In this document: positions 20,794 to 23,482 of the stretch, piece after piece
Position numbering within the stretch: the stretch's first letter is position 1
Layout of the letters: the number at the start of each line of letters is the position of its first letter
From: Oscillospiraceae bacterium
Lineage (GTDB): Bacteria > Bacillota > Clostridia > Oscillospirales > Oscillospiraceae
Length of the DNA stretch: 64,000 bases
Direction: 5' to 3'
NCBI GenBank assembly: GCA_910575695.1
Contig: CAJTGJ010000021.1
Location: 20,091-84,090 of the forward strand
The notes under the pieces: generated by a model
The model's input: only the letters and a program-made list of their open reading frames with translations
The model's database searches: none
What the model was told of the DNA's origin: nothing
Program-made: the position numbers and the translations under genes

Positions 20794-21201
20794 TTAGAGG
20801 CCCTCGCAGGGCTTCTGAGCGACAGACAGGTAGCCCTTGATCGGATTGCCGCCCTGCTCCACGATTTTGACATAGAACGTAACGGGTTTCGTGTCGGGAA
20901 AATCATACCAGATGGCCACGTCTTTGTGGGTGTTGGCCGCAATTTCCTTCGTGGCGACGGGGTCAGCCTGGTCTATACGGTAGAGGTAAACGGTAGCCTT
21001 ATGATCCGACCGGTTGGCATACCAGACCTTGATGTATTGGCCGTTGCCGGGGGTGGAGGTAAATCTGTCGGATTTGAAGATACTGCTAGATTGATTGTAG
21101 ACAGTTGGATTATTGTAGAGTGTTGCGGCAGAAGCGGGCACGGCCATGGAGAAGGACATCGCCAGGGCCAGCAGCAGGGACAAGAAGCGTTTTGCTTTCA
21201 C
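20794..21201 (-). CDS. Small secreted protein (cassette 1)
   Basis: 135 residues from a GTG start with AAAGGAG. The signal peptide (about residues 1-25, ending ASA) is nearly the same as in cassettes 2 and 3. The mature part is about 110 residues of alternating beta-type sequence with FTSTPGNGQYIKVWYAN, aligned with the SPGAGAY[LI]QVWFAN core of cassettes 2 and 3. I know of no named family. It has its own perfect sigma-A promoter and a terminator, and is the farthest gene from the XRE regulator. An extracellular beta-sandwich protein, perhaps binding or adhesive, is all that can be said. Confidence 0.75.
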   Translation of the reverse strand: MKAKRFLSLLLALAMSFSMAVPASAATLYNNPTVYNQSSSIFKSDRFTSTPGNGQYIKVWYANRSDHKATVYLYRIDQADPVATKEIAANTHKDVAIWYDFPDTKPVTFYVKIVEQGGNPIKGYLSVAQKPCEGL

Positions 21202-21254
21202 GGGTATATCTCCTTTCTGTCTGTGCGGTATGGGGTAGATTGGAACATAATTTA

Positions 21255-21283
21255 AGTATATACGAAAACATTGCCAATGTCAA
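21255..21283 (-). promoter_or_regulatory. Sigma-A promoter of secreted cassette 1
   Basis: Minus strand: -35 TTGACA, 17-bp spacer, -10 TATACT, 54 bp upstream of the GTG. Near-identical to the promoter at 21832-21860. Confidence 0.85.
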
Positions 21284-21319
21284 GCAAAAAAATAGGGCGG
21301 GGGCAGGCTGTACGTTTTG

Positions 21320-21778
21320 TCAGGAGGGATTGTTGACATACTGGGCCGCAGCCACATCGCCCACAATCCATGTGCTGTTCCTCGACTGGAAACGAATGTA
21401 GAACGTGTTCGCCACATTGGGGTTGGGAATTTGATATACAAACCTCTCATTATTATGAGAGCTGTTCCAGGTCACAGTCTTGGATGCAAGGACAACGCTG
21501 TTGGTGCTGTCCATCAGCATGACGGTGACATCCGAGGTGCCGCGGTTGGCGAACCAAACCTGAAGATACGCCCCGGCGCCGGGGCTGGTGGTAAAGGGGC
21601 CTACGCTGTTGCCGCTGCTCGTCGAAATGGGTTCGTGAGGATAGAGCTGCAGCCGCAGCTTGATCTCCGCGCTGGGGTCGCCATAGGGCTCGGCGGCAAA
21701 GGCGGGCACGGCCAGGGAGAAGGACATCGCCAGGGCCAGCAGCAGAGACAAAAAGCGCTTTGTCTTCATTTTTTTCAT
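21320..21778 (-). CDS. Small secreted protein (cassette 2)
   Basis: 152 residues. The signal peptide (residues 1-28, ending AFA) is followed by a short variable N-terminus and a conserved beta-rich domain: GPFTTSPGAGAYLQVWFAN, then TVMLMDSTNSVVLASKTVTW, then FYIRF near the end. It is a recent duplicate of cassette 3: from residue about 58 the two are almost identical while the mature N-termini differ. Own promoter at 21832-21860; no terminator follows, so transcription may run into cassette 1. Function unknown. Confidence 0.78.
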   Translation of the reverse strand: MKKMKTKRFLSLLLALAMSFSLAVPAFAAEPYGDPSAEIKLRLQLYPHEPISTSSGNSVGPFTTSPGAGAYLQVWFANRGTSDVTVMLMDSTNSVVLASKTVTWNSSHNNERFVYQIPNPNVANTFYIRFQSRNSTWIVGDVAAAQYVNNPS

Positions 21779-21831
21779 GGATATTTCTCCTTTCTGTCTG
21801 TGCGGTATGGGGCAGATTGGAACATAGTGTA

Positions 21832-21860
21832 AGTATATACAAAAATATTGCCAATGTCAA
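21832..21860 (-). promoter_or_regulatory. Sigma-A promoter of secreted cassette 2
   Basis: Minus strand: -35 TTGACA, 17-bp spacer, -10 TATACT, 54 bp upstream of the ATG. Confidence 0.85.
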
Positions 21861-21880
21861 GCAAAAAATAGGGCGGGGCC

Positions 21881-21912
21881 AAAAGCAGCCCGCCCCGCTG
21901 GGGGGCGGGGCA
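21881..21912 (-). terminator. Terminator after secreted cassette 3
   Basis: The stem GCCCCGCC / GGCGGGGC type hairpin reads into CTGCTTTTGG on the minus strand, 15 bp after the stop codon at 21927. Confidence 0.75.
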
Positions 21913-21926
21913 GGCTGTACGTTTTG

Positions 21927-22385
21927 TCAGGAGGGATTGGTGACATACTGGGCCGCAGCCACTTTACCCACAACCCGTGCGTTGTTCCGCGCTTCAAAGC
22001 GAATGTAGAACGTGTTCGCCACATTGGGGTTGGGAATTTGATATACAAACCTCTCATTATTATGAGAGGTGTTCCAGGTCACAGTCTTGGATGCAAGGAC
22101 AACGCTGTTGGTGCTGTCCATCAGCATGACGGTGACATCCGAGGTGCCGCTGTTGGCGAACCAGACCTGAATATACGCCCCGGCGCCGGGGCTGGAGGTA
22201 AAGGGGCCGACACTGTAGCCGCTGCTTAACGAAATGTTGTCTTCCGCAAAAATCTGCGACAGCGGCATGATCCCATCATCGGGATCATCGGCGGCGGGTG
22301 CGGCAAAGGCGGGCACGGCCATGGAGAAGGACATCGCCAGGGCCAGCAGCAGGGACAAAAAGCGCTTTGTCTTCATTTTCTTCAT
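21927..22385 (-). CDS. Small secreted protein (cassette 3)
   Basis: 152 residues from the ATG at 22385 with AAAGGAG. The signal peptide ends AFA at residue 28. The mature N-terminus (PAADDPDDGIMPLSQ) is unlike cassette 2, while the rest (GPFTSSPGAGAYIQVWFAN to the C-terminus) is a close copy. There is no promoter of the cassette type here; the gap to the stop of the upstream secreted protein is 41 bp, so it is read from the XRE promoter. Divergent N-termini on a constant domain suggest changing specificity, an inference from two copies. Confidence 0.78.
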   Translation of the reverse strand: MKKMKTKRFLSLLLALAMSFSMAVPAFAAPAADDPDDGIMPLSQIFAEDNISLSSGYSVGPFTSSPGAGAYIQVWFANSGTSDVTVMLMDSTNSVVLASKTVTWNTSHNNERFVYQIPNPNVANTFYIRFEARNNARVVGKVAAAQYVTNPS

Positions 22386-22426: not shown

Positions 22427-22891
22427 TCAATAGTTCACGAACCCAACCACACGCACAGTTTGTGAAGAATTGTTCCTGACCGCCACCGCGTAGCTTCCAG
22501 CCTGGTTAATTCCGATGGTCTGACTGATACTGCCCCCTTTCACATTGATTAAGTGGAATTTACCAGTGGATGAGACAACGCCGAAGTCCATATTTGCGGA
22601 CGATGGCGAGTAGGAACAGTTAAAAGCGACCACATCGTTGGCCTTAAAGCTCATAAAAGAGGAAAAGTAGCCTACGGAGTGCGCTGACACAGTTTTATCC
22701 ACTTCGACGGAGGTCAGGGGCGTGGGACCAGCTGCGTCATACTCCACAGCCGACAGGTCAATCCACTCCCATTCCAGATCCTCCAGCCAGATAACCTCGC
22801 TGGAGGCGTCTGCCGCTCCAGCAGGCGGGATGATAGCGGCCAGCGTCAGAACACAGGCCATCAGCACACACATCAATCGTTTTGTTTTCAT
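22427..22891 (-). CDS. Small secreted protein sharing a motif with the XRE regulator tail
   Basis: 154 residues. A signal peptide (1-26, ending AGA) is followed by a short acidic/Trp-rich N-terminus (residues 32-50) and a beta-rich domain to the C-terminus (SVGYFSSFMSFKANDVVAFN, then GSYAVAVRNNSSQTVRVVGFVNY). Residues 34-50 fit IWxxD[LM]xxxxIDLSxVE and match, without gaps, residues 124-140 of the regulator encoded just upstream. The gene starts 30 bp after the regulator stop, so they are co-transcribed. No family known to me; a ligand, decoy or partner for the regulator's outer tail is possible. Confidence 0.75.
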   Translation of the reverse strand: MKTKRLMCVLMACVLTLAAIIPPAGAADASSEVIWLEDLEWEWIDLSAVEYDAAGPTPLTSVEVDKTVSAHSVGYFSSFMSFKANDVVAFNCSYSPSSANMDFGVVSSTGKFHLINVKGGSISQTIGINQAGSYAVAVRNNSSQTVRVVGFVNY

Positions 22892-22921
22892 AGATACGTT
22901 CCTTTCCTAAGTATTTACATT

Positions 22922-23377
22922 TTATGGATCAATAATTGTTACACCATCGGTCCAGTCCTCCACTTGCGATAAGTCGATATCTTCCGTCACCATATCATCT
23001 GTCCATATAATATTGTCCTCCGGCTCCTCCGGCTCCTTCTCCTTCGCAACTGCGGACACAATCGTGACCACGGACGAGGCCGACACCAGCAGGACGAGCG
23101 CCGCCGCCGCAGCGGCCCCCATGATTTTCAGCGGCAGCTGCTTCTTACGGAGCGGGGCCTCTTCCTGTTCTACGGCAGGCGGCTCCCCGTCCACAAGCAC
23201 GTCCAGGGAAATGCCGTAAAACTTCCCCAGGGCGATCAGGTTTATCGCAGACGGGGAGATCACCCCCCGCTCCCATTTGGAGATGGACTGCCGGGTAACC
23301 CCGATCTTGTCGGCCAGCTCCTCCTGGGTCAGTCTGTGCTCCATGCGAACCTCCGCCAGTCGTTCCTTCAGTTCCAT
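22922..23377 (-). CDS. Membrane-anchored XRE-type regulator with extracellular tail
   Basis: 151 residues. The N-terminal XRE helix-turn-helix (about 5-60; LTQEELADKIGVTRQSISKWERG) is intact. A linker leads to one membrane helix (about 85-110, Ala/Val-rich), then an acidic outer tail of about 40 residues. The tail contains IWTDDMVTEDIDLSQVE (124-140), the motif repeated in the next gene. XRE domains fused to a single membrane span usually report on the outside through proteolysis or tail contacts. It heads the secreted-protein island, with its promoter at 23405-23432, and probably regulates it. Confidence 0.85.
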   Translation of the reverse strand: MELKERLAEVRMEHRLTQEELADKIGVTRQSISKWERGVISPSAINLIALGKFYGISLDVLVDGEPPAVEQEEAPLRKKQLPLKIMGAAAAAALVLLVSASSVVTIVSAVAKEKEPEEPEDNIIWTDDMVTEDIDLSQVEDWTDGVTIIDP

Positions 23378-23404: not shown

Positions 23405-23432
23405 ATGATATTTTGGTTGTCATATATGTAAA
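23405..23432 (-). promoter_or_regulatory. Promoter of the XRE regulator gene
   Basis: Minus strand: -35 TTTACA, 16-bp spacer, -10 TATCAT, 27 bp upstream of the ATG. Confidence 0.55.
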
Positions 23433-23482
23433 CATGGGTTTCCACGCCGGTTTCCAGGAGCGGAAACCCAGGAAATTGGAAG

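Follow-up and report, generated by a model that had tools for sequence, protein, structure and literature searches.

The stretch of DNA that we analysed (the window) comprises 64,000 nucleotides of an Oscillospiraceae bacterium genome, and carries on its reverse strand a gene for a membrane-anchored XRE-family regulator, followed by a gene for a small secreted protein and by three further genes for secreted proteins that are likely its cargo (Table 1). Exactly 30 bp separate the stop codon of the regulator gene from the ATG of the secreted gene, as the original prediction had stated, and the two genes share the same reading frame; we infer from this spacing that they probably lie on one transcript.

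Table 1. Features of the regulator locus, in window coordinates
Feature	Position	Strand	Basis
Operator-like inverted repeat, GTGGAAAC-CCAT-GTTTACAT, 68 to 49 bp before regulator ATG	23426..23445	-	
Regulator of the XRE family (151 aa) with HTH_3, a single TM helix and an acidic outer tail	22922..23377	-	ORF, Pfam, AF2
HTH_3 DNA-binding domain of regulator, residues 7-61	23195..23359	-	Pfam E 7.5e-18
Regulator transmembrane helix, residues 86-111	23045..23122	-	Hydropathy and AF2 helix 86-111
Regulator tail copy of 17-residue motif, residues 124-140, IWTDDMVTEDIDLSQVE	22958..23008	-	pLDDT 93-98, read-through model
Secreted partner (154 aa) with signal peptide, motif, linker and beta-sandwich	22427..22891	-	ORF; 166 homologues found
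Predicted signal peptide, residues 1-26	22814..22891	-	Alignment (A26 nearly invariant); AF2 helix 2-20
Secreted copy of motif, residues 34-50, IWLEDLEWEWIDLSAVE	22742..22792	-	pLDDT 91-92
Jelly-roll beta-sandwich (predicted), residues 61-154	22430..22711	-	AF2 strands 61-153, block means 90-97
Downstream secreted protein 1, 152 aa (likely cargo)	21927..22385	-	ORF
Downstream secreted protein 2, 79% identity with protein 1	21320..21778	-	ORF
Downstream secreted protein 3, 35-38% identity with proteins 1 and 2	20794..21201	-	ORF

The regulator combines its DNA-binding domain and its transmembrane helix on one chain, according to Pfam, hydropathy (for which the same protein, L009_29, was used) and AlphaFold2 (AF2), so that the earlier description of a DNA-binding protein with a one-span anchor holds. 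In a Pfam scan at E 0.1 the HTH_3, HTH_19 and HTH_31 models exceeded their own cut-offs, and a ToxR-type domain was not found among the 20 families matched; structure matching of the read-through model (see below) revealed a resemblance to lambdoid repressors. A transmembrane window and a net-negative tail were present in all 40 distinct regulator-type ORFs, with a median tail length of 38 aa. In the alignment of 30 regulators, I134 of the tail is invariant, and I123, D128, E132 and D135 are nearly invariant. Among the 40 ORFs, L038_35 has a tail of 161 aa and L079_25 one of 158 aa; in both loci (L038 2751-3431; L079_25) this protein with its long outer part is an additional XRE-TM regulator that lies near a pair. 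A regulator of 205 aa (P0147) carries the motif described below twice in tandem within its tail.

The secreted protein matched no Pfam (at E 0.1) or NCBIfam family, and scans of the pair and some of the cargo with PADLOC, Pfam and NCBIfam returned no function besides the HTH, except for DUF5022 in one cargo protein (L023). Its AlphaFold2 model, built on an alignment of 90 sequences, has a mean pLDDT of 86: the motif blocks (91-92) form a strand, a short helical turn, a second strand and a second short helical turn, the linker block 51-60 falls to 59, and the sandwich from residue 61 onward reaches 90-97. The ordering of the motif beyond a loose linker, read from model confidence and secondary structure, suggests that the motif packs on the sandwich. 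By the predicted model, the sandwich shows a fold likeness to jelly-roll domains, with modest scores for GOLD, collagen-binding/PPC and PliG-like folds in the structure search; lipocalin folds were absent among the structure matches listed, an absence that is no proof. There was no sequence match of the window's secreted protein to PPC (PF04151) at Pfam E 0.1, and the remote L063 matched PPC at E 0.006, which is under that model's cut-off.

The two proteins share a 17-residue motif, in which residues 124-140 of the regulator and 34-50 of the secreted protein align without gaps and with 10/17 positions identical. The original prediction had the place and the lack of gaps right, but it counted nine identities, missing the E at motif position 9. 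Between the tail and the mature secreted protein the best ungapped BLOSUM62 score was 51 (shuffle mean 21.4), a value reached by one of 20,000 double shuffles; against the window's three next secreted proteins the tail scored 30, 21 and 24. Comparison by hhalign of the secreted (59 sequences) and regulator (30 sequences) alignments gave a probability of 96.4 and an E of 1.1e-9, the match consisting of 33 columns around the motif with nothing else aligned. The secreted-family profile also matched the TM and tail region of the regulator (E 1.3e-4). At the DNA level the motif is identical in 33/54 nt over 18 codons, and the copies are therefore not the product of a recent DNA duplication.

To score this motif elsewhere we used a matrix built from 18 regulator tails only, for which 886 unrelated ORFs served as control (maximum 8.2). 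Among the 120 secreted homologues in the matches listed (166 were found), 115 beat all 886 controls, 113 scored above 11.8, the peak of 2,400 shuffles of homologue N-termini, and in 116 the best match begins at residues 20-50. A search of 42 genus genomes with the tail profile yielded seven matches at E<0.01, namely the window's two proteins, three regulators, L071 (a protein in one piece) and the remains of a cassette copy at L082; all seven come from this system, and every other match lay above 0.1. Within the data searched, the motif is therefore a mark of this system, and the earlier expectation that it would not be widespread in unrelated proteins agrees with both the 886 ORFs and the genus genomes. 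A degenerate DNA pattern for IDLSxVE has four matches in the window's own genome, two of which are the window pair. The decayed cassette (L082 1471-1700, in G777) adjoins the same HD-type gene, and retains a tail remnant, IVWTDDLEVEDIDLSEM, together with a signal-peptide remnant.

Across the wider set, only 6/40 regulator-type ORFs and only 3/36 scorable genome partners (L079 was left out of the partner scoring) topped the control maximum with the tail matrix. Judged from these sequences, the exact motif mostly fades beyond the window's clade, and the secreted copy is a feature of that clade. The motif stops 12-15 residues short of the sandwich match in the recognisable copies (those of the window, L014 and L019) and likewise in L071, which is a single chain. 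Like segments with the same spacing occur in L014_17, L021 (an M56 protein), L023, L025, L033 and L074; all of them score under the control maximum and are therefore suggestive only, and their kinship, as well as that of the remote tails, was judged by eye.

How the sandwich is partnered was examined in 54 distinct sandwich ORFs, after rows sharing an identical last 60 aa were dropped. An XRE-TM regulator precedes 37 of them on the same strand (L015 and L079, in both of which the secreted frame is broken, count among these), so that the adjacency noted at the outset for the window is the usual arrangement. One further ORF is next to an incomplete regulator at the end of a contig, five are in frame with a regulator-type HTH (only a truncated HTH in L043), and three lie within M56/BlaR1-type proteins, two of them assigned by Pfam and L050 by eye. 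The remaining eight (2 fragments, 5 larger secreted proteins and 1 small one) have neither a regulator nor an M56 partner, and the sandwich therefore serves elsewhere too. The larger secreted proteins, with no upstream regulator, are L049, L059, L060, L061 and L062; L059 has a C39-like domain and L060 a weak metalloprotease match.

The secreted-family profile matched in at least 30 of 400 genomes of the family, at least 20 of 394 of the order and at least 5 of 391 of the class, samples that overlap and in which at most nine candidates per genome were scored, making the counts lower bounds; it also matched in 9/42 genus genomes and in 6/20 genomes of another genus. Of the class-wide five, three come from the window's own family, and two are weak matches in ORFs of 2,022 and 674 aa. 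The sandwich family therefore looks limited to the order.

In some members the two halves are a single protein. L071, from the same genus as the window, encodes in one ORF the HTH, the TM helix, KEPKTPEDG, IIWTGAMEWELIDPSAI and the sandwich, and five one-piece proteins that are 77-96% identical to it (P0197-P0201) likewise contain TM, motif and sandwich. These five are found on 2, 3, 15, 1 and 5 contigs (26 altogether), and an assembly error is therefore unlikely. After these, L071 matches members of two-piece systems: the regulators P0202-P0206, at 64-70% identity across the N-terminal 58-59%, and the secreted proteins P0105, P0085 and P0100, at 71-75% across roughly the C-terminal half. In the one-piece form, the regulator half ends and the secreted half begins with one and the same motif. 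Judged by sequence identities, the one-piece forms may have arisen within a two-piece clade, and they may be passive deletions. More remote one-piece forms are L074, L076 and L048, and in L074 and L076 VWDQNNLPWVTVDPEVIQ-like segments precede the sandwich. The sandwich is also found C-terminal to Pfam M56 domains in L018 4783-6393 (E 1.4e-40) and L021 4720-6228 (E 4.7e-43); a motif-like TIDQMTEYTATIDLSTAI lies 14 aa before the sandwich of L021, with a tail-matrix score of 3.9 as compared to the control maximum of 8.2.

We lean towards the interpretation that the regulator and the secreted sandwich protein are two parts of a single, split surface receptor and that the tail motif would plug into the sandwich, a notion that draws on the predicted structures. 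When both genes were translated in frame as one chain and modelled by AlphaFold2 (the read-through model), the regulator motif adopted the secondary structure of the secreted motif with a pLDDT of 93-98, and the secreted copy (residues 197-214) fell below 50. The alignment had put the motif of the secreted homologues on the regulator tail columns, which favours the tail; the model therefore suggests that the tail fits, not that it wins. Structure matching of the same model returned mainly HTH proteins and did not reveal the position of the tail.

According to the original prediction, an extracellular protease or other partner, such as a surface ligand, could recognise both copies of the motif, the secreted one acting as a decoy. 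Such a scheme would agree with the conservation of the motif in both proteins, with the net-negative outer tail of every regulator-type ORF, and with the presence of the lysozyme inhibitor PliG among the related folds. We nevertheless regard it as rather unlikely, since the motif is predicted to be ordered beside the sandwich, the one-piece forms retain it directly before the sandwich, 33 of the 36 scored genome partners have no copy that the tail matrix recognises, and the diverse genes behind the pair encode no obvious third partner. With only three partners above the control maximum, a decoy copy is therefore not essential to the wider system. The protein's own sandwich is a more economical partner for the tail than an outside one, because the motif stands so shortly before the sandwich, is predicted to be ordered beside it, and is the joint of the one-piece proteins.

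In the split-receptor reading, the secreted sandwich would dock on the tail motif and thereby set the state of the regulator. Docking would respond to a signal from outside or to how much free secreted protein is present, and would in turn alter the dimer state of the HTH domain or its release from the membrane. For secreted proteins of the window's clade, which bring a motif copy with them, the groove would be occupied in cis, yielding a self-limiting receptor. A bolder version, which we put forward tentatively and would not ourselves bet on, is an exchangeable plug: the tail and the secreted N-terminal segment would compete for one groove, the free secreted protein being self-blocked and opened by the membrane half, with the halves joined at the plug at least once in evolution and the sandwich also placed on BlaR1-type peptidases.

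In 16 pairs, own tail and partner motifs were more alike than mismatched ones (34.7 vs 25.9; 6 of 100,000 permutations reached this value), and the same was seen for the 13 closer pairs (38.4 vs 33.4; 834 of 100,000) and for 12 closer pairs without P0160/P0114 (1,875 of 100,000), with 4/16 pairs falling below expectation. Nine of the 16 pairs were matched up indirectly, through contigs of equal length, L024 was aligned by hand, and L015, with its frameshifted partner, was left out. Since shared ancestry confounds this test, and given the indirect assignment and the hand alignment, the co-variation is therefore supporting only.

Common descent by itself could also explain the two copies: the pair would derive from a partial duplication of a one-piece receptor, the tail would be a non-binding stub, and the regulator would be controlled otherwise. 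The match of the secreted-family profile to the TM and tail region, the existence of one-piece forms and the low DNA identity of the copies all fit this account. However, a stub would be expected to decay, and in 30 regulators the tail instead keeps its invariant and nearly invariant positions; together with the greater likeness of own than of mismatched pairs, this makes the stub clearly unlikely in our judgement.

The DNA-binding domain of VtrA and ToxR is a winged-type HTH. In the co-component systems VtrA/VtrC and ToxR/ToxS, the genes of which are adjacent and in many cases overlapping, a membrane-tethered HTH transcription factor is joined by an outer partner that completes the sensor, and the sequences evolve fast (PMC9214523). 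Such signalling was described there in enteric bacteria, with a lipocalin-like partner, and the main text of that paper makes no mention of XRE, Firmicutes or Gram-positive (PMC9214523). The window regulator resembles these systems in its N-terminal HTH, its single TM helix and its tethering to the membrane, and in the window family, too, the gene of the putative outer co-sensor adjoins the regulator gene; the pair differs from them in its XRE HTH_3 domain, its secreted and predicted jelly-roll partner, and its tail of about 40 aa with a motif common to both halves. The earlier statement that no system like this had been described was thus too strong, as the plan is shared. Given the other HTH family and the predicted secreted jelly-roll, we therefore do not file the pair as a member; by analogy it is best read as a split transmembrane receptor that would work like VtrA/VtrC but from other building parts. 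A description of the gene pair was not found in the literature covered, mostly the openings of abstracts.

Two other known classes touch on the family. Transmembrane transcription regulators (TTRs) carry a DNA-binding domain and a TM helix on one chain, with the outer part as input (PMC10269533). The one-piece proteins P0197-P0201 are TTRs in plan, and the window regulator shares the HTH and TM, but has a short tail in place of an outer domain, its likely sensor being the separate secreted protein. BlaR1/MecR1-type M56 sensor peptidases (PF05569) are represented by L018 and L021, which bear the family's sandwich behind M56, whereas the transducer of the window is XRE-TM. An Oscillospiraceae-type family made from other parts would suggest that split membrane receptors have arisen more than once, and the natural forms in one piece and in two pieces, with one joint as their point of difference, allow the division or rejoining of a sensor to be tested directly.

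As to the output of the pair, a pattern written to include the window's inverted repeat occurs once in the 5-Mb genome. The more general ATGTAAAC-N8-GTTTACAT was present at 13/16 positions or more in 20/42 regulator upstreams (L009, the same locus as the window, was dropped) as compared to 13/2,000 control pieces, with a consensus derived from the same upstream pieces that were later scored; in 17 of the 20 the repeat sits 58-68 bp before the start codon. A repeat in front of the regulator gene suggests autoregulation. The HTH domain would act at this repeat, and the regulator would set the expression of its own cassette, including the secreted cargo, which fits the self-contained surface-sensing circuit proposed originally. 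Some co-component systems are known to control a neighbouring gene, as MarT/FidL does with MisL (PMC9214523).

In 33/37 pairs a further ORF whose N-terminus resembles a signal peptide lies no more than about 310 bp behind the pair, by a hydropathy rule used without a control run, so that some of these are simply membrane proteins (rows with an identical last 60 aa were dropped here too). On this pattern, and on the occurrence of the sandwich in larger regulator-less secreted proteins, one might take the secreted protein itself for the first cargo, adhesin- or inhibitor-like, and its motif for a tag that serves retention or export and has nothing to do with regulation. This appears very improbable, as the sandwich protein stays constant across the pairs whereas the gene behind it differs widely, and fusions join the sandwich to signal transducers of two kinds, XRE-TM and M56. 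Under the split-receptor reading, the pair would probably control a group of secreted proteins that lack annotation.

The genes behind the pairs are diverse and mostly without a family; the only scanned cargo with a confident one is L023 1951-2940, which lies behind a pair and matches DUF5022 (E 2.8e-77). In the window, the three tandem cargo proteins (20794-22385) are related and have near-identical signal peptides, and one relative was found behind the L019 pair. One contig (L014 5482-9102) contains two complete pairs about 1.5 kb apart, with a different gene behind each.
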